64,000 bases of DNA from contig NZ_JAGQAZ010000004.1 of the NCBI RefSeq assembly GCF_024345375.1, forward strand, positions 1 through 64,000, given 5' to 3'. The stretch comes from Cyanobium sp. WAJ14-Wanaka. GTDB lineage: Bacteria; Cyanobacteriota; Cyanobacteriia; PCC-6307; Cyanobiaceae. A program made the translations under genes and the position numbers. Below are positions 44,375 through 51,109 of the stretch, in pieces. Numbering within the stretch: position 1 is the stretch's first letter; every line of letters starts with the position of its first letter. Below the pieces are notes generated by a model that saw only the letters and a program-made list of their open reading frames with translations, was not told the DNA's origin and made no database searches.

Positions 44375-44381
44375 GTGTCAG

Positions 44382-44638
44382 TAGGGTCGGCATCACTTGA
44401 ATCCGAGCCTGGTGCAAAAAGCAATTCGGTGCGCCGTCATTGCGGCAAAGATCAGCAAGCCCGCCACCTCCCACAGCTTCCGCCATTCCTTTGCCACCCA
44501 TCTCCTGGAACGGGGGCATGACATCCGAACCACAATGATTTATACCCACGTGCTCAATCGAGCCAATACGGCATTAGCAGCCCCGCAGACACTCTGTAAC
44601 TTCATGAACACATCTTATGCGGATCCGCCCAAATAGTT
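44382..44638 (+). pseudogene. IntI-type tyrosine recombinase remnant (C-terminal scrap)
   Basis: The frame from the TAG at 44382 to 44636 encodes an integron-integrase C-terminus: [39 protein letters not shown], then directly [10 protein letters not shown]. The His-x-x-Arg and the nucleophile Tyr are present, but the intervening VQELLGHxD box of about 11 residues, with the third catalytic residue, is deleted. The N-terminal 250 residues are absent, cut at the aldolase gene end. It lies just before the first cassette core. Confidence 0.8.
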
Positions 44639-44645
44639 GTTAGCG
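44639..44645 (+). other. Integron core site at the 5' edge of the first cassette
   Basis: GTTAGCG at 44639-44645 fits the GTTRRRY-type recombination core and lies right after the intI remnant. The left arm of a palindrome is not clear, so it may be an attI remnant or the join of the first cassette. Confidence 0.5.
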
Positions 44646-44704
44646 GTACCCAACACCGGACGAAACGGAGTAGGATCTCTTTCTAGGCATCTGGGTTGAG
44701 CGAA

Positions 44705-44932
44705 ATGTCAGCCTTTCTTAAGAGCATTGAGGAGCAGGCACGCGCCCTTAGCCCAGAGGATAGGGCAAGGCTAGCCGAGAGCATGCTGGAGTCACTCCAC
44801 ACATCAATCGCTGAAATCGAGGCTCTTTGGGCTGAAGATATTGAAGAGCGTGTCAGTGCGTTTGACCGGGGCGAAATTACTTCATACTTGGCCGAAGAAG
44901 TATTTGCTGAAGCTCGTCGAACTCTGCAGTGA
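44705..44932 (+). CDS. Putative addiction-module antitoxin (PF09720/Unstab_antitox type)
   Basis: A 75-residue acidic protein: FLKSIEEQARALSPEDRARL is the alpha-helical start typical of this family, and the C-terminal half (IEALWAEDIEERVSAFDRGE) would wrap the toxin. Start ATG 44705 (TTG 44696 possible). It overlaps the next toxin gene by four bases (GTGA). First gene of cassette 1. Confidence 0.8.
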   Translation: MSAFLKSIEEQARALSPEDRARLAESMLESLHTSIAEIEALWAEDIEERVSAFDRGEITSYLAEEVFAEARRTLQ

Positions 44933-45204
44933 AATGCGCACGCTTTGTTGCTCCTGCTAGACGTGAGCTTCTTGCAGAAGTTGCCTACTGCAACAACAAG
45001 GAGTTGGGGCTTGGCAGTCGTTTTCTTGTTGCCGTTGAAGATGCCACTGCTCGCGCCCTCGCTTACCCTCTTACTGGGACGCCAGCGTCAGAAAGCACTC
45101 GGCGAATGTTCCTCAAGGACTTTCCTTTTGCGATTGTATATCGACCGGATGAAGATGACATAGTTGTATTTGCACTTGCTCATCACGCACGCCGCCCAGA
45201 GTAA
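44929..45204 (+). CDS. ParE/RelE-family toxin
   Basis: A 91-residue toxin with the RelE/ParE fold: FVAPARRELLAEVAYCNNKE helical start, FLKDFPFAIVYRPDEDDIVVFALAHHARRPE strands with the typical end. Start GTG 44929, overlapping the antitoxin. ParE toxins act on gyrase and RelE on mRNA in the ribosome; which applies is not clear. The end lies just before attC 1. Confidence 0.85.
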   Translation: MKCARFVAPARRELLAEVAYCNNKELGLGSRFLVAVEDATARALAYPLTGTPASESTRRMFLKDFPFAIVYRPDEDDIVVFALAHHARRPE

Positions 45205-45226
45205 TGGCGGGTCCGCATAGATGACC

Positions 45227-45314
45227 GCTAATAATGCCATTCACCAGACCCGACACCTGAGGGTAACTTCGATGACTACAGCCCTATGCGGCCTGGTGAT
45301 GGCAAGCGTTAGAA
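45227..45314 (+). repeat. attC site 1 (family A)
   Basis: Imperfect palindrome: left arm CTAATAATGCCATTCACCAG, right arm CTGGTGATGGCAAGCGTTAG. The two arms pair apart from one extra T on the left arm, as expected for the extrahelical base of attC. Core GTTAGAA at 45308-45314. Same family as attC 2 and 7. Confidence 0.85.
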
Positions 45315-45437
45315 AGATGCGAGCGCCATACCGAATCAGACTAGATGCTCAGTGTGCCCCGGGTATGGGTCGCAGCTACTGAGTGCTTCCTGTTAATGGC
45401 GGCGGAGTTATCCTGAACGGCAACTTCGGGAGAGCAA

Positions 45438-45677
45438 TTGTCACCAACCGTCTTCCGGGATGGCGAATATCGGTTTTTCTTCTTCTCGCGCGAGGAAAGC
45501 CGAGTTCACATCCATGTGAGCCATCCAGATGGCGAGGCGAAGTTCTGGCTGAAGCCGACCATTGAACTCGCCCGCAACATTGGGCTAAGCTCTTCAAAGA
45601 TTAAAGACGCAGAACGCCTCATCGAGTCCCGTCAACAGGAGATCACCGATGCCTGGAACAACCACTTTAGGAGCTGA
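45438..45677 (+). CDS. DUF4160 domain protein
   Basis: A 79-residue protein: GEYRFFFFSREESRVHIHVS and AKFWLKPTIELARNIGLSSS match DUF4160. Start TTG 45438. Such genes are usually next to DUF2442 genes, often inside mobile regions, and the pair is suspected to be toxin-antitoxin-like, but no activity is established to my knowledge. First gene of cassette 2. Confidence 0.8.
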   Translation: MSPTVFRDGEYRFFFFSREESRVHIHVSHPDGEAKFWLKPTIELARNIGLSSSKIKDAERLIESRQQEITDAWNNHFRS

Positions 45678-45945
45678 GGTAACGAATATATCTGGCCACT
45701 GCGTCTGGATGCTTATTGACGATGAAGAGCTAGCGCTTCCATATTCCGAGTTTCCGTGGTTCAAGGCGGCCACGATTCAGCAGATCCTTAACGTCTTGCG
45801 CCCGACGGCAGACCATCTCTATTGGCCAGATTTAGATGTTGATTTATCTGTTGAGTCTATCCGCCATCCTGAGAGATTTGCGCTGAGGGCGAAGAGCACT
45901 TTCCAACCATGCCATTCACCTGATCCGCCGCCGGAAACTCACTGA
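45649..45945 (+). CDS. DUF2442 domain protein
   Basis: A 98-residue protein, overlapping the DUF4160 gene by 29 bases. HCVWMLIDDEELALPYSEFPWFK and LYWPDLDVDLSVESIRHPERF are the DUF2442 signature. The last 14 codons read into the left arm of attC 2, so the cassette is packed tightly. Partner of the DUF4160 protein by position. Confidence 0.8.
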   Translation: MPGTTTLGAEVTNISGHCVWMLIDDEELALPYSEFPWFKAATIQQILNVLRPTADHLYWPDLDVDLSVESIRHPERFALRAKSTFQPCHSPDPPPETH

Positions 45946-46003
45946 TTCCATGGAGCGGATCGAGGCCGTACTCTCTGCGGCCAGGTGATGGCAAGCGTTA
46001 GAC
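45901..46003 (+). repeat. attC site 2 (family A)
   Basis: Left arm CCAACCATGCCATTCACCTG, right arm CAGGTGATGGCAAGCGTTAG, core GTTAGAC at 45997-46003. Loop about 60 bases. The arms are nearly identical to attC 1 and 7. Confidence 0.85.
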
Positions 46004-46092
46004 GAACATCTGAGACGAAAACTCAACCAGCCAACGGGAGTGGTGTCAATCCCTTTTGGTGTTGCTAAGGTAATGGCATCGGTTCATAGGCT

Positions 46093-46302
46093 ATGAATTT
46101 CACATTGGAGTGCGAGCAAGAGGTTGACGGCCGCTGGATTGCAGAGGTTCCTGAGCTGCCTGGCGTCCTCTCCTATGGCATCTCTGCCGCAGATGCAATG
46201 TCGAAGGCCGAAATCTTGGCACTTCGCGTTATTGCCGAAAGGCTAGAAAATAGCGAGTCTGAGCCTGTGAGTATCAATCTTTCTCTCCCCGTTAGTGCAT
46301 GA
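46093..46302 (+). CDS. HicB-family antitoxin
   Basis: A 69-residue protein: FTLECEQEVDGRWIAEVPEL and PGVLSYGISAADAMSKAEIL are the HicB partial RNase H fold; no DNA-binding domain. Overlaps hicA by 4 bases (ATGA). Cassette 3. Confidence 0.85.
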   Translation: MNFTLECEQEVDGRWIAEVPELPGVLSYGISAADAMSKAEILALRVIAERLENSESEPVSINLSLPVSA

Positions 46303-46511
46303 GTGCATGGCCATCTGTCAAGGCGAGAAGGGTGTTGGCTGCGCTCCAGTCCATTGGGTGGCGAGTCAAGCGTCAGTCAGGATCTCACAAGACACTTGCT
46401 CGAGACGGATGTACTGACTTCATCTTTGCCTTCCATGATGGTGAGGAAATAGGTCCGAGGATGTTGTCCTGAATCGCAAAGAACACCGGTCTACAGCCGA
46501 GTGATCTGTGA
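46299..46511 (+). pseudogene. HicA toxin with premature stop
   Basis: From ATG 46299 the frame reads MSAWPSVKARRVLAALQSIG, the RNA-contact QSGSHKTLARDG with the catalytic His, and EEIGPRMLS, then TGA at 46470-46472. In the same frame the rest of the family C-terminus follows (IAKNTGLQPSDL) to a second TGA at 46509. The first TGA replaces an expected Arg codon. The truncated 57-residue product still carries the catalytic His but lacks the last helix. Sequencing error or true decay cannot be separated here. Confidence 0.8.
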
Positions 46512-46525
46512 GATATACATCAAGT

Positions 46526-46617
46526 CGTCTAAAACACCCCTTGAGTGGACAGGCCACCATCAAATCTCTGATGAACTGCCCCAGCGCCGAGCCTGGCACT
46601 CAGGGGCGGCGTTAGCC
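46526..46617 (+). repeat. attC site 3 (family B)
   Basis: Left arm GTCTAAAACACCCCTTGAGT, right arm CACTCAGGGGCGGCGTTAGC, core GTTAGCC at 46611-46617. The inner GTGGACAGGCCACC next to the left arm is itself a small palindrome. Same family as attC 5. Confidence 0.82.
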
Positions 46618-46684
46618 AGAGCAGAGGCAACGGCTGATGACGGCAGATGTGGCTACAATGTGAGCACGTCGGTCTGAGGTCGCC

Positions 46685-46927
46685 ATGGTTCGGGCGAAGC
46701 TTGTCAAAATTGGGAACTCGCGGGGCATCCGTCTCGCGAAGCCGTTACTTGAGGTGGCGGGGCTTTCTGATGAAGTCGAAATCGAGGCTGCGCCTGGAGT
46801 GCTGACGATCAGACCCTCTGCACATCCAAGAGCAGGCTGGGCAGAAGCAGCAGCAGCATTCGATCCAGATGGTCTTCTCGATGATATGAGCAGCACCCGC
46901 TTTGACGACGAAGAATGGTCGTGGTAA
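46685..46927 (+). CDS. MazE/AbrB-type antitoxin
   Basis: An 80-residue protein: RAKLVKIGNSRGIRLAKPLL is the swapped-hairpin DNA-binding AbrB/MazE domain, and the acidic tail (AAAAFDPDGLLDDMSSTRFD) binds the toxin. Overlaps mazF by 13 bases. Cassette 4. Confidence 0.9.
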   Translation: MVRAKLVKIGNSRGIRLAKPLLEVAGLSDEVEIEAAPGVLTIRPSAHPRAGWAEAAAAFDPDGLLDDMSSTRFDDEEWSW

Positions 46928-47256
46928 CAGAAGCAGCCGTCTCAAGAGGGGCTATCTACCTTGTTTCCCTTAATCCCACGCAAGGATCAGAAATCAGGAA
47001 AACCAGGCCGTGCGTTGTCGTCTCCCCAGATGAGTTGAATGCCCATCTCCGCACGTTTATCGTTGCGCCACTTACAACAGGTGGCCATCCCTATCCTTTT
47101 CGCATACGTTGCAGATTTGATGATAAAGATGGTCATGTGGTTGCCGATCAGCTCAGGGCTGTCGATAGAGACCGGTTGATTAAGCACCTAGGCGTATTGG
47201 ACGAAGACACGCTGGTTGAGGTGCTCAGTGTTTTGCAGGCTATGTTTTCTGTGTAG
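46915..47256 (+). CDS. MazF/PemK-type mRNA interferase toxin
   Basis: A 113-residue protein: SRGAIYLVSLNPTQGSEIRK, TRPCVVVSPDELN and FIVAPLTT are typical of MazF, with the Arg (RKTRP) and Thr catalytic pair present; DQLRAVDRDRLIKHLG follows. Cleaves RNA at short sites. Intact with its antitoxin. Confidence 0.92.
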   Translation: MVVVTEAAVSRGAIYLVSLNPTQGSEIRKTRPCVVVSPDELNAHLRTFIVAPLTTGGHPYPFRIRCRFDDKDGHVVADQLRAVDRDRLIKHLGVLDEDTLVEVLSVLQAMFSV

Positions 47257-47262
47257 CGGCGT

Positions 47263-47347
47263 GGCTAATATCCAGATGCAGAAGACGGGAACAATGGCTG
47301 ACTTCTTTGCCGAGATTTTTACCCGCTTCTTATCTGGAGCGCTGGCC
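47263..47347 (+). repeat. Degenerate attC site 4 (family C)
   Basis: Left arm GCTAATATCCAGATGCAG, right arm CTTATCTGGAGCGCTGG. The right core is GCGCTGGCC where GCGTTRRRC is expected, so it is probably not a working site. Left arm and the following GAAGACGG resemble attC 6. Confidence 0.55.
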
Positions 47348-47413
47348 AGTCCCATTGATGAGATCCCGGAAAGACCAGATCAGAGCTAGTTTGTAGAGAT
47401 GTAGCGGAGGACC

Positions 47414-47623
47414 ATGGCAAGGCAATTTGATGTCGTTGTCGAGAAAGACTCGGATGGATTCTTAGTCGCCAGTGTGCCTGCTCTGTCTGGCTGTCACACA
47501 CAGGCACGCTCTCTTGATGAGATGATGGAGCGCATCAAGGAAGCTATTGAGCTGTGCCTTGAAGTTCAAGAGGGTGATGTTGAGCAACTTGATTTTTTAG
47601 GTATTCAGAGGGTTACGGGATAG
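47414..47623 (+). CDS. HicB-family antitoxin (second)
   Basis: A 69-residue protein: QFDVVVEKDSDGFLVASVPA, LSGCHTQARSLDEMMERIKE. Different enough from the first HicB to be a separate acquisition. Followed immediately by a hicA pseudogene. Cassette 5. Confidence 0.85.
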   Translation: MARQFDVVVEKDSDGFLVASVPALSGCHTQARSLDEMMERIKEAIELCLEVQEGDVEQLDFLGIQRVTG

Positions 47624-47852
47624 GAGTATCGAAGTACTCAGCGGTTACAGGAAAAGCAATGATTATGGCACTCAAGAGGGCTGGCTTTTTGTGCTAAGAG
47701 TGAAGGGTAGCCATCATTTTCTTCGGCATCCAGATGAACGGACAACAGTCGAGCCAGTGCATTCCGGTGAATCAATCGGGCCTGGTTTGCTGGCCAAGGT
47801 ACTACGTGATGTAGATCTCACGAGAAATAAACTTGAAGAGTTGCTTGTGTAA
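47620..47852 (+). pseudogene. HicA toxin with frameshift (second)
   Basis: The first part reads YSAVTGKAMIMALKRAGF, and after one base is lost in the T-run at 47686-47690, the frame must shift to reach VLRVKGSHHFLRHPD and TVEPVHSGESIGPGLLAKVL, ending TAA at 47850. Without the shift a TAA follows at once. The expected start position has ATA (47620) rather than ATG. The toxin is therefore unlikely to be made. Confidence 0.82.
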
Positions 47853-47863
47853 GCGGAAAGGCC

Positions 47864-47956
47864 GGTCAACAAGCCCCTTTAGGTGGACAGGCCACCAGCA
47901 ACTCTCTGCTCCGCCACTACAAGCTCCCTGCCTGCCACTCAGGGGCAGCGTTAGAA
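47864..47956 (+). repeat. attC site 5 (family B)
   Basis: Left arm GGTCAACAAGCCCCTTTAGG, right arm CCACTCAGGGGCAGCGTTAG, core GTTAGAA at 47950-47956. Shares the GTGGACAGGCCACC stretch with attC 3. Confidence 0.82.
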
Positions 47957-47995
47957 GGATAGGAGGGAAGCAGCAAGCGCCGCCGTCTTGGCGCC

Positions 47996-48007
47996 TTGAC
48001 GTCAAGA
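47996..48007. promoter_or_regulatory. Palindrome upstream of the RHH antitoxin (candidate operator)
   Basis: CTTGACGTCAAG is a perfect 12-base palindrome 15-25 bases before the RHH antitoxin frame. RHH antitoxins usually bind such short palindromes to repress their own operon, so it is a likely operator. Confidence 0.5.
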
Positions 48008-48022
48008 CGCTAAGGTCAAGGA

Positions 48023-48158
48023 ATAGACGAAACGAAACGGACCACCATCTACTTTGACATGGATGTTCATCGTGCATTGCGCCTAAGAGCTGCTGCATGT
48101 AGCCGCTCAATATCGGACATGGTCAATGAAGCAGTGCGCATGACATTGGCACGGTGAC
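48023..48158 (+). pseudogene. RHH (CopG/Arc-type) antitoxin, 5' part, cut by an IS element
   Basis: The frame encodes TKRTTIYFDMDVHRALRLRA then SRSISDMVNEAVRMTLA, a ribbon-helix-helix DNA-binding domain. The in-frame triplet at the expected start is ATA (48023), preceded by a stop at 48011. After TLA the IS3-family element begins and a TGA at 48154 stops the frame. The 3' part lies at 49848-49952. RelE toxin follows the 3' part. Confidence 0.78.
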
Positions 48159-48178
48159 TTTCAGGAAAGGTGTCACTC

Positions 48179-49312
48179 CTAGGCTGCCACTAAGGCGGCC
48201 TGGATTAATGGTACCGGCTGGATTGAATTGGGCTCCTCTGGTGGCTTGTTGATCCACACTTCTGCCGGCTGACGCCAGCAGCGGATCTGCCTGCTCCAGC
48301 GCGATGGATTTGCCCGGCGAGCCTTCTCATAGACATCAATGCGCTGCTGGCAAATGGCCGTAGCGGCGCCACTGTGGCGCTGGTGGGGCGTCACGAACTT
48401 GATACCGCTATGGCGGTGCCGGTGGTTGTACCAATCCACAAAGGCCACGACCCACTGGCAGGCCTCGTCTTTGCTGGCAAAAGGCCGGCTGGGGTAGTCG
48501 GGCCGGTATTTGACGGTTCGGAACAGCGATTCCGAGTAGGGGTTGTCATTTGAGACCCGTGGCCTGGAGAAAGATCTGAGCACCCCCAGCTCCTCCAGTC
48601 GGCTTTCCAGCGTTGCGGCACGCATTGCATTGCCGTTATCGGCATGGAGGATCAACGGCTGCTTGCGGCCCTTGCTGATTCGTTCTCTCAGACAAGCCCT
48701 ACTCACCAGATCGGCAGCGATGGCTGGGTCTTCCCGCTCGGCGATATCCCAGGCCACCACCTTCCTGCTCCAGACGTCGATCACCAGGTAGAGGTACAGC
48801 CAAATCCCGCGGACGGTCGTGGGCAGATAGGTGATATCCCAGCTCCAGACCCGGTTGGGCCCAGCCGCCATCAGGCGCGGCACTGAGCGTGGCTCCTGCG
48901 GCAACCTGGCCCGTCCGCGCCGATGGCATTGCCCTGCCTGGTGCAACACCCGATAGAGACTGCTTTCTGAACCTATAAAAAGCCCTTGATCGGCCAAGGC
49001 TGGCACTATCTGAGCCGGCGGCAACGAGGCGTACTCCGCCTGGTTGCACGTCAGCAGGATCCGCTGACGCTCTTCGCCCGTGAGGCGGTGGGAAACTAAG
49101 CGGAGACTGCCTTTACGGCGGTCTTCGCCATCCCCATCACCTGCAAAAGCCTTCCGCCAGCGTTTGAGGGTGCGCAGAGAGATCCCGATCTCGCAGCAGG
49201 CCCTCAGCAACCTGGCGCCAGTGGCATTTGCTTCTGTGATCAGCTCGATCGCCTTCTGCCGGTGGGCGGCGTTGGTCAGCCTTCCGCGTCCTCCGAGCAA
49301 AAGGCATCCCAC
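48179..49312 (-). CDS. IS3-family transposase OrfB (DDE integrase)
   Basis: About 377 residues. An HTH_21-like region (LPPAQIVPALADQGLFIGSE) precedes the rve integrase core with VWSWDITYLP (first Asp), ILHADNGNAMRA (second Asp) and NPYSESLFRT (Glu), the DDE triad. It is in the -1 frame relative to OrfA and is probably made only as an OrfAB fusion by frameshifting at A_AAA_AAG (49312-49318); the GTG at 49312 could alternatively start it alone. Confidence 0.9.
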   Translation of the reverse strand: MGCLLLGGRGRLTNAAHRQKAIELITEANATGARLLRACCEIGISLRTLKRWRKAFAGDGDGEDRRKGSLRLVSHRLTGEERQRILLTCNQAEYASLPPAQIVPALADQGLFIGSESSLYRVLHQAGQCHRRGRARLPQEPRSVPRLMAAGPNRVWSWDITYLPTTVRGIWLYLYLVIDVWSRKVVAWDIAEREDPAIAADLVSRACLRERISKGRKQPLILHADNGNAMRAATLESRLEELGVLRSFSRPRVSNDNPYSESLFRTVKYRPDYPSRPFASKDEACQWVVAFVDWYNHRHRHSGIKFVTPHQRHSGAATAICQQRIDVYEKARRANPSRWSRQIRCWRQPAEVWINKPPEEPNSIQPVPLIQAALVAA

Positions 49313-49782
49313 TTTTTTCGCAGCACCAGCAGGGCTGCCATCTCCGCCATGGCCTTTTCCTTTCGCTGCAGCTCTTTTTTAGGGGCTTTGATTTCCCTTT
49401 GGTCTTGGGCGCGGAGCCTTTCAAGCTCCTTCTGCTCGTCCATCGTCAGCACCGGCTTGGCATTGGCATCAAGTGCCGCCTGTTTCCAAATTCTTACCTG
49501 CTCGGGGAACATCCCTCGCTCGCGGCAGTAACCGCTGAGCTCGGTGGCGTTGAGGCCAGCGGTCTCAACCACCACCGTGAACTTGTCTGCAGCGCTCCAG
49601 GCTTCTGGTTCCCTCTCGGAAGCCGGTACTACCTCTCCCTGCAATCGCCAAGTCCTTCTCCATCTGTAGAGGGTCAAAATATGAATGCCCAGCTCCTTTG
49701 AAATCCGGGCCACGCTCTGTCTTTGTGGCGGACTCATCCGCCTTCTCACATCAGCCCTTACGGCCTCGCTGTAACGACGCAT
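49276..49782 (-). CDS. IS3-family transposase OrfA (helix-turn-helix)
   Basis: A 168-residue protein: helix-turn-helix SVARISKELGIHILTLYRWR (about 23-42) and a second one LNATELSGYCRERGMFPEQV, then a leucine-zipper-like end (ERLRAQDQREIKAPKKELQR). Binds IS ends. The AAA-AAG slippery codons near the end, in correct phase, lead into OrfB. Confidence 0.9.
   Translation of the reverse strand: MRRYSEAVRADVRRRMSPPQRQSVARISKELGIHILTLYRWRRTWRLQGEVVPASEREPEAWSAADKFTVVVETAGLNATELSGYCRERGMFPEQVRIWKQAALDANAKPVLTMDEQKELERLRAQDQREIKAPKKELQRKEKAMAEMAALLVLRKKWDAFCSEDAEG
49312..49318 (-). promoter_or_regulatory. Programmed -1 frameshift site
   Basis: On the minus strand, CG[A AAA AAG]TG in OrfA phase is the canonical A6G slippery heptamer of IS3 elements. 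After a -1 slip the next codons are GTG GGA TGC of OrfB. Confidence 0.75.
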
Positions 49783-49847
49783 TGCTCATGTCCTCAAGCC
49801 CCCTGGTGTACGAATAAAAGGGGTGACATCTTTCCTGAAACAGGGGG

Positions 49848-49952
49848 GCAGAAGATGCTGATGATTTGAGAGATGCTGATCAGAGGCAAGCTGAGCCAAG
49901 CTCCGGCTTCGAAGAGTTTGTCACAAACCTAAGAGATAGTGGCCGAAAATAG
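49848..49952 (+). pseudogene. RHH antitoxin, 3' part, separated from its 5' part by the IS
   Basis: In frame: AEDADDLRDADQRQAEPSSG then FEEFVTNLRDSGRK and TAG. This is the acidic toxin-binding tail that belongs after TLA at 48146. It overlaps the RelE toxin GTG by 14 bases. Confidence 0.78.
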
Positions 49953-50202
49953 CCTCTCTATTAAGCCATCAGCTGCTAAAGAGCTCCAAGCGTTATCAGG
50001 CAAGGCGACGTTGACACGGATGATTGTGAAAATTAAATCACTGGCAACTCAACCGCGGCCATCAGGGTATGAAAAGCTTGCAGGCAGGCCAAACTTTTAT
50101 CGTGTCCGACAAGGTAACTATCGGGTCATTTGCTCCGTCGATGATGAGAGGCATGTTGTCGACGTTGTTAAGGTTGGCCACAGAAGAGATGTCTACCGAT
50201 GA
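49939..50202 (+). CDS. RelE-family mRNA interferase toxin (intact, antitoxin broken)
   Basis: An 87-residue protein: LSIKPSAAKELQALSGKATL, MIVKIKSLATQPRPSGYEKL, YRVRQGNYRVICSVDDERHV, VVDVVKVGHRRDVYR. The conserved basic core and the HRRDVYR end are intact. Start GTG 49939, overlapping the antitoxin remnant. Its antitoxin is split by the IS3 element, so this toxin has no intact partner in the window. Confidence 0.88.
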   Translation: MAENSLSIKPSAAKELQALSGKATLTRMIVKIKSLATQPRPSGYEKLAGRPNFYRVRQGNYRVICSVDDERHVVDVVKVGHRRDVYR

Positions 50203-50210
50203 GTGAACCT

Positions 50211-50294
50211 TCTAACATCAAGATACAGAAGATGGAAGCGGGAGAATTCGGCAATGCCCAAGTTCTATGCCCGCCGCTGATCTTGGCGTTAGTT
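50211..50294 (+). repeat. attC site 6 (family C)
   Basis: Left arm TCTAACATCAAGATACAG, right arm CTGATCTTGGCGTTAG, core GTTAGTT at 50288-50294. Left-arm neighbour GAAGATGG resembles attC 4. Confidence 0.82.
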
Positions 50295-50373
50295 TGACGT
50301 TGCAAAGCCCTTGAAGCACGGTCTCTTGGTGGTCTCCCTGGGTTTCTGGGTACAATGGGCTAGGATGTGGGTT

Positions 50374-50682
50374 ATGTCAGCCATCATTGACGAGAAGCGA
50401 CAGGAGATCGCGGCAGCCTGCCAGCGATATGGGATTGGGCGTTTGTTTGTCTTTGGCTCAGCCCTCAGAGAGGACTTCAGGCCTGGAGAAAGTGATATTG
50501 ACCTTCTTGTTGAATTTGGCCCATTGGAAATCACCAAGCGCTTTCATGTGTAGCTTGACGCTCGCGAGGCGTTTAGGAATATCTTCCAAGCCGACGTTGA
50601 CTTGGTTATGCAGGGAGCGGTGAAGAACAAAGTTATTGCTGGCGAGATTGACCGAACGAAGAAGCTAGTTTATGGCGCGTGA
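50374..50682 (+). pseudogene. MNT-type nucleotidyltransferase with in-frame amber codon
   Basis: From ATG 50374: EKRQEIAAACQRYGIGRLFV, then FGSALREDFRPGESDIDLLV with the GSx10DxD nucleotidyltransferase motif, then TAG at 50551. In the same frame LDAREAFRNIFQADVDLVMQ continues to TGA at 50680, giving the expected 102-residue length if the TAG were read. In MntA/HepT systems the MNT partner AMPylates and silences the HEPN toxin. The motif residues lie before the TAG. Confidence 0.82.
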
Positions 50683-51025
50683 TCTATCTGCATATTTACA
50701 GGATATCCCTGATGCCTGCAACTCGACTGAAGATGTCATGAGCGGCATTTCATTAGAAGATTACCGCAACAAGCGTGCCGTTAGATCTGCTATCGAACGA
50801 GAGTTCATCATTATTGGCAAGGCCCTTAGGAGGGTCAGCTTCCTCGATGAGACGCTGTTTAGTTCTATATCTAATTCTCGTGCGATCGTTGACTTTCGGA
50901 ACCTGCTTGCCCATGACTATGGAGCAATTGATGACGATGCCGTTTTCGGACTTGTCTATTCAGATCTGATCGTTCTTAAGGCAGAAGTTGGCGAGCTGTT
51001 GGATAGCTGGCATGACGCAAACTAA
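50672..51025 (+). CDS. HEPN-domain toxin (HepT-like, DUF86)
   Basis: A 117-residue helical protein: RDLSAYLQDIPDACNSTEDV, RSAIEREFIIIGKALRRVSF, then SRAIVDFRNLLAHDYGAIDD with the Rx4-6H RNase motif (RNLLAH) and the following Tyr that is AMPylated in HepT. It overlaps the MNT read-through frame by 11 bases and is intact, while MNT has a stop. Cassette 7. Confidence 0.88.
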   Translation: MARDLSAYLQDIPDACNSTEDVMSGISLEDYRNKRAVRSAIEREFIIIGKALRRVSFLDETLFSSISNSRAIVDFRNLLAHDYGAIDDDAVFGLVYSDLIVLKAEVGELLDSWHDAN

Positions 51026-51109
51026 CAATGCCATTCACCTGAGCCGCCTCCCGTGTCTCTTGTTTGCCCCCCCCCAACTCACTGCGACCAGGTAATGGCA
51101 AGCGTTGGG
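51022..51109 (+). repeat. attC site 7 (family A), 3' end of the cassette array
   Basis: Left arm CTAACAATGCCATTCACCTG, right arm CAGGTAATGGCAAGCGTTGG, core GTTGGGA at 51103-51109, with a C9 tract in the loop. Same family as attC 1 and 2. Host-like DNA resumes within 60 bases. Confidence 0.87.

Follow-up and report, generated by a model that had tools for sequence, protein, structure and literature searches.

An IS3-family insertion sequence was found to divide the antitoxin gene of a RelE-type toxin-antitoxin pair in Cyanobium sp. WAJ14-Wanaka and, judged from its sequence, this pair is an integron gene cassette. We consider it probable (roughly 70%) that the cassette is decaying and silenced, with its toxin gene cut off from a damaged promoter. 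The analysis covered a stretch of 64,000 nucleotides (referred to as the window) on contig 4 of a draft genome (2.14 Mb, 7 contigs, 99.93% complete), and the antitoxin, RelE, and integrase searches were performed on a family sample of 300 genomes, in which this genome was included.

Interrupted antitoxin and the IS3-family element

The antitoxin, the inserted element, and the toxin gene were located as follows.

48023..48157 (+): antitoxin 5' part; the first codon is ATA, not ATG, and the frame runs one codon into the IS before a TGA
48149..48151: target-site duplication GCA, left copy
48152..49847 (-): IS3-family insertion sequence of 1,696 bp, with imperfect inverted ends CGGTGACTTTCAGG and CCCCCTGTTTCAGG (the latter on the other strand)
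48179..49312 (-): transposase OrfB (integrase core; PF00665, 2.2e-18), with candidate DDE motifs located
49276..49782 (-): OrfA (HTH; PF01527, 4.4e-9), overlapping OrfB
49848..49850: target-site duplication GCA, right copy
49851..49952 (+): antitoxin 3' part (acidic tail), in which TTG 49866 is the sole in-frame start among ATG, GTG, and TTG
49939..50202 (+): RelE/ParE-type toxin gene, with a GTG start overlapping the end of the antitoxin and an open frame

The IS sits between codons 43 and 44 of a 76-codon RHH-like antitoxin, and separates its N-terminal part, which is DNA-binding-like as is usual in this family, from its C-terminal tail. Because the RHH families of Pfam matched the 5' part weakly and below their cut-offs in every case (best, 2.9e-4), as they also did for four uninterrupted relative antitoxins (best, 6.8e-5), we call the antitoxin only likely to be of the RHH type. 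The 3' part overlaps the first 14 bases of the RelE frame, and the same overlap was found in the relatives.

When the two parts were joined into a query of 73 residues, matches were obtained in 25 of the 300 family genomes at E ≤ 0.001, including 19 places with 82-93% identity. Matches spanning 60 residues or more were present at 26 of 31 relative loci, five of these 26 being second views of the same genomes. A preliminary description of this DNA had proposed that an IS3 insertion splits the antitoxin and had suggested a comparison with strains that do not carry the element: the split, with both parts correctly placed, was borne out, and all 26 loci were uninterrupted at the codons of the IS site. 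These 26 loci also had ATG at the start-codon position, where the window has ATA (48023). ATA may rarely serve as a translation start. With the insertion and this ATA, the antitoxin gene is no longer complete and translatable and is therefore a pseudogene. A search of this genome at E ≤ 1 revealed no second copy of the antitoxin and no other sequence related to it.

The larger frame of the IS scored 188.3 bits against the IS3 transposase model NF033516 (curated cut-off, 160). OrfA and OrfB overlap at 49276-49312, and a candidate -1 slippery site, A AAA AAG, was read from the sequence at 49318-49312, distinct from a separate slippery-type motif at 49380-49374. A target duplication of 3-5 bp, as expected of the IS3 family, was present as GCA (3 bp). 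Nineteen related copies from other family genomes were examined, two of which were unaligned at the left end; among the 17 usable copies, 13 had a duplication of 3-4 bp at the same ends, and 16 started with CGGT. The terminal dinucleotides TG...CA are usual in IS3 elements and were not treated as defining; they are absent from the window element, the ends of which are CGGTGAC and CCCCCTG. Ends of the form CGG.../...GGG were seen both in this element and in most of the related copies (L085-L103). Only one full-length match to the IS was found in this genome among the matches listed.

Integron cassette and surrounding array

The elements assigned to the integron were as follows.

44379..44636 (+): integron integrase remnant, C-terminal part, lacking a stretch of the motif region (TIGR02249, PF00589)
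47864..47954 (+): attC-like site ending the preceding cassette, GGTCAAC...GCGTTAG, read from the sequence
47951..50288 (+): integron gene cassette (RHH-like antitoxin and RelE), enlarged by the IS; the relatives are alike inside these limits and unlike outside them
50209..50292 (+): attC-like site of the RelE cassette, with a 17-pair stem containing one unpaired base

The limits of the cassette are boundaries of the GCGTTAG type, G^TT(AG), the letters of which are degenerate in some relatives. Among the 21 distinct loci compared, two were dropped for want of an upstream anchor and seven for want of a match to the downstream pattern. At the upstream limit, the mean pairwise identity was 0.68 over the opening 25 nt of the cassette versus 0.46 over the preceding 25 nt (20 sequences). 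At the downstream limit, it was 0.77 over the closing 25 nt versus 0.33 over the following 25 nt (15 sequences); the loci for this second comparison were selected with a pattern for this type of attC, and such a selection biases towards similarity ahead of the boundary. With the stem drawn from the consensus of the sequences, 92.9% of cells were paired over 15 sequences, versus 34-47% when the stem was slid. Covariation was not found in the stem of these 15 sequences, at least as many cells being paired in 500 of 500 shuffles. A local-alignment scan of the window for attC-like inverted repeats was set aside as unspecific: sites outside the array scored equal to those inside it, and the maxima in 20 shuffles ranged from 11.5 to 15. 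A stricter scan of the window returned one site, at 46611. Since the scan was unspecific, the attC claim rests on the shared limits and the stem count, by which the antitoxin-RelE pair is identified as an integron gene cassette, its recombination by an integrase being predicted. Arms similar to those of the attC-like site at 47864-47954 precede the cassette in several relatives, and an attC with arms like those of the 47950 site occurs in the array downstream of the integrase (itself with one stop) of genome G003; at one locus (L045), the cassette ends in a different attC type.

The integrase beside the array is a remnant, and an intact gene was not found there. Its match to TIGR02249 (71.9 bits) spans 44379-44585 and covers model positions 231-311 of 315, with one TAG, and the frame 44397-44636 within it matched PF00589 (1.6e-9); one other, weak match to TIGR02249 was detected in this genome (30.9 bits, contig 5). 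Predicted integron integrase genes are common in the picocyanobacterial family Cyanobiaceae: 72 of the 300 genomes had a TIGR02249 match at E ≤ 1e-30 (60 above the cut-off), versus none of 14 controls. Some of the family matches contain stops or are fragments only. An integrase was found in 17 of the 19 other RelE genomes (E ≤ 1e-13) versus 55 of the remaining 280 (Fisher p = 7e-10, unadjusted for genome size or completeness). In three of these 19 genomes (G213, G090, and G153), an integrase gene in the same orientation precedes the pair by approximately 2, 3, and 10 kb, respectively; among the coordinates listed for the remaining 16, many with short contigs, no integrase was seen that close.

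The array extends from approximately 44.6 to 51.1 kb, and contains, in this order, PF09720/PF05016, DUF4160/DUF2442, a gene without an assigned family together with HicA, PemK accompanied by a weak match to MazE and then HicB and HicA, the broken pair, and MntA-like/HepT. By eye, attC-like sites were placed near 45308, 45997, 46611, 47950, 50288, and 51104. The overlapping DUF4160 and DUF2442 genes (45438-45945) are bracketed by two attC-like sites, as a two-gene cassette would be. In 47414-47852, the match to HicA that comes after a HicB-like antitoxin sets in at profile position 17 and has no standard start upstream. In the last pair (50311-51025), an in-frame TAG (50551-50553) interrupts the MntA-like antitoxin frame, and the HepT-like toxin frame (50672-51025), which includes an RNLLAHDY stretch, is open, so that the array contains one more toxin whose antitoxin is damaged. 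The toxin-antitoxin-rich stretch 44379-51104 is flanked by genes that presumably correspond to mtnB and mtnA of methionine salvage; no mtnB- or mtnA-like genes were detected in the sequence extracted around the integrases of G006, G003, and G001. The three Rfam matches within the window were tmRNA (two models) and one tRNA.

RelE toxin and its likely promoter

The RelE frame, which the preliminary description had reported as complete, is indeed open and matched PF05016 with 4.2e-12 (46.9 bits; curated cut-off, 23). A structure model built from 16 aligned sequences (pLDDT 78.8) had E. coli RelE (4fxh_B) as its best match (Z 10.7, rmsd 2.4, 82 residues), where rows within 1 of this Z count as tied; the predicted fold is that of RelE, and RelE structures are among the best matches. 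Arg55, Arg62, Arg82, and Tyr86 are conserved and align with Lys52, Arg61, Arg81, and Tyr87 of E. coli RelE, which we take to be active-site residues. RelE is probably competent, in that it can still fold and cut mRNA.

Close RelE relatives are encoded at five named loci: three from Synechococcus, one from Cyanobium, and one from an uncultured cyanobacterium. Sixty-five plasmid records had RelE relatives, all distant (<60% identity). An adjacent antitoxin match accompanied 20 of the 21 RelE places outside this genome. At the exception (L083, 1501-1749, in G267), RelE carries many changes, including some at conserved positions, and a count of its stops gave one. Of the two partners, the toxin is broken at L064 (nonsense) and L057 (truncation), and both are damaged at L053 and L080. 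At L036, on the same contig as L058, it is likewise the toxin, and not the antitoxin, that is broken by a nonsense codon.

For the comparison of RelE, 27 sequences including that of the window were extracted and 17 were kept, after sequences with stops and those that were incomplete, misframed, or identical had been dropped. Nine residues of the window protein were private, occurring in none of the 16 relatives (Asn4, Gly21, Met28, Val30, Tyr44, Phe53, Cys65, Arg71, and His72); several fall where the other sequences are invariant or nearly so, and eight of the nine are outside the overlap with the antitoxin. The mean pairwise dN/dS was ordinary (0.16; rank 5 of 17), whereas the private changes outside the overlap (eight amino-acid to one silent, versus 83:93 pooled over the 16 others) gave a Fisher p of 0.017 in a post hoc test. 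Because these two tests gave differing answers, relaxed selection on RelE is not claimed, and any relaxation of constraint would be recent or slight. The preliminary description had regarded a second intact copy of the antitoxin in the genome, or a mutation inactivating RelE, as grounds for abandoning its account: the former is absent at the threshold given above, and a plainly inactivating mutation was not found in the 17-sequence comparison, but the nine private residues were.

The sequence upstream of the antitoxin was compared with 21 distinct upstream sequences of relatives.

47988..48016 (+): likely promoter TTGGCG-17-TAAGGT, with the palindrome CTTGACGTCAAG at 47995-48006

The -35 position is TTGACG in 17 of the 21 relatives and TTGGCG in none, versus TTGGCG in the window; the other four have CTGACG (one), TTAACG (two), or an unrelated upstream sequence (one). 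In the relatives, TTGACG stands approximately 17 bases before a second hexamer, which is often TAAGGT and, in most of them, matches TATAAT at no more than three of six bases. This spacing and conservation suggest that TTGGCG-17-TAAGGT is the promoter of the pair. A consensus promoter scan of 47850-50400 returned a single site, located on the - strand, where chance alone would give 0.9, and none on the + strand; this is weak evidence because the same rule overlooks the likely promoter in most of the intact relatives. Compared with its relatives, the window locus thus differs in three respects: the likely promoter, the antitoxin start codon, and the antitoxin reading frame. In addition, the IS places 1.7 kb between RelE and the likely promoter, with transposase genes that run the opposite way.

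These observations are best accommodated by the following reading. The locus is a once-complete type II pair of the RHH-RelE kind, carried as an integron cassette in a picocyanobacterium, and an IS3-family element has inserted in its antitoxin, parting the N-terminal part from the C-terminal tail. RelE has lost its likely promoter, translational coupling, and antitoxin together, and its frame would persist because expression is too low to matter, with the cassette presumably decaying within an array whose integrase is itself a remnant. The preliminary description had held that the toxin should be silent, weakened, or neutralized by another antitoxin. Silence is favoured, since the likely promoter has a changed -35 and lies 1.7 kb away behind opposite-running IS genes; the proposal of neutralization gained no support. 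It is unlikely, if the most plausible of the alternatives, that RelE is expressed but is too weak to harm because the private substitutions have cut its activity or stability. The absence of these nine residues from all relatives, several of them at (nearly) invariant positions and eight outside the overlap, would fit such a weakening, but the four residues aligned with the E. coli active site are conserved, the aligned solved structure 2khe likewise has a Cys where the window protein has Cys65, and the mean dN/dS is ordinary.

Neutralization could come from the cassette itself, if the antitoxin 3' part were translated alone from TTG 49866 into a peptide of 28 residues that neutralizes RelE. 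The frame is open from this codon to the stop at 49950, and 2kc8 is, by its title, a structure of E. coli RelE with the antitoxin peptide K47-L79; nevertheless, TTG is an uncommon start, a strong ribosome-binding site was not seen by eye, a promoter was not found by the (insensitive) scan, and no such arrangement was seen among the comparative cases, making this improbable. A bolder form, in which the insertion made a peptide-toxin pair whose 28-residue tail, translated immediately before RelE, checks the toxin and whose DNA-binding part no longer matters, is more improbable still. It is very doubtful that a neighbouring or distant antitoxin neutralizes RelE: several further antitoxin-like genes are present in the array, but the neighbours that could be assigned belong to other families (PF09720, PF15919, weak MazE, and PF01909/MntA-like), and no relative of the antitoxin turned up in the rest of the genome at E ≤ 1. 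That the insertion is an artefact of assembly is hardly credible, in spite of the draft state of the genome (7 contigs), since the duplication of 3 bp is perfect, the site is uninterrupted in 26 of 26 relative loci, and a single full-length IS match was present among the matches listed.

Relation to known systems

With its RHH-like antitoxin N-terminus followed by an overlapping RelE, for which the RelE fold is predicted, the pair resembles type II systems of the RelBE type (RHH-RelE); it differs from them in that the antitoxin is interrupted, the start codon and likely promoter are changed, and no functional pair remains. In the available parts of a study on Vibrio cholerae (PMC11023631), toxin-antitoxin cassettes of the integron are described that, similar to the present one, have two genes, their own likely promoter, and a terminal attC within an array, and IS3 and IS911 are reported inside cassettes of the chromosomal integrons. 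In contrast to those cassettes, the host here is a picocyanobacterium, the array is short, and the integrase is only a remnant. Cassettes that outlast the loss of the integrase are also known from CALIN (clusters of attC without integrase), as presented in the accessible portion of PMC8618304; unlike in CALIN, a piece of the integrase is still recognizable beside the array. In lacking a working partner, this type II toxin gene recalls the orphan toxins of a marine-genome survey, one catalogue of which, in the part of the article at hand (PMC12654330), comprises 4,386 cases; here, unlike in that survey as far as available, the cause is directly readable as an IS inside the antitoxin.

Several components have been in print before. 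According to the available sections of PMC8618304, PMC2426708, and PMC3108266, integrons occur in Cyanobacteria, integrase pseudogenes make up approximately one-third of cases, and a Synechococcus integrase is part of a published set; cassettes of toxin-antitoxin genes with their own promoter, IS3 in cassettes, and widespread orphan toxins are covered by the corresponding sections of PMC11023631 and PMC12654330. On the other hand, the word integron is absent from the main text, as available, of two papers on toxin-antitoxin systems in estuarine picocyanobacteria (PMC5498466 and PMC12413379), and a paper devoted to picocyanobacterial integron cassettes was not among the matches listed in a search of the cyanobacterial integron and picocyanobacterial toxin-antitoxin literature that covered few subscription papers. 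The finding is a well-documented new example whose components are of known kinds, and not a new kind of system. Its before-and-after comparison shows a way for a toxin gene to survive the loss of its antitoxin: with the likely promoter, the start codon, and the antitoxin damaged together, the frame of the toxin is able to persist. A further indication is that picocyanobacterial toxin-antitoxin pairs are able to move as integron cassettes.
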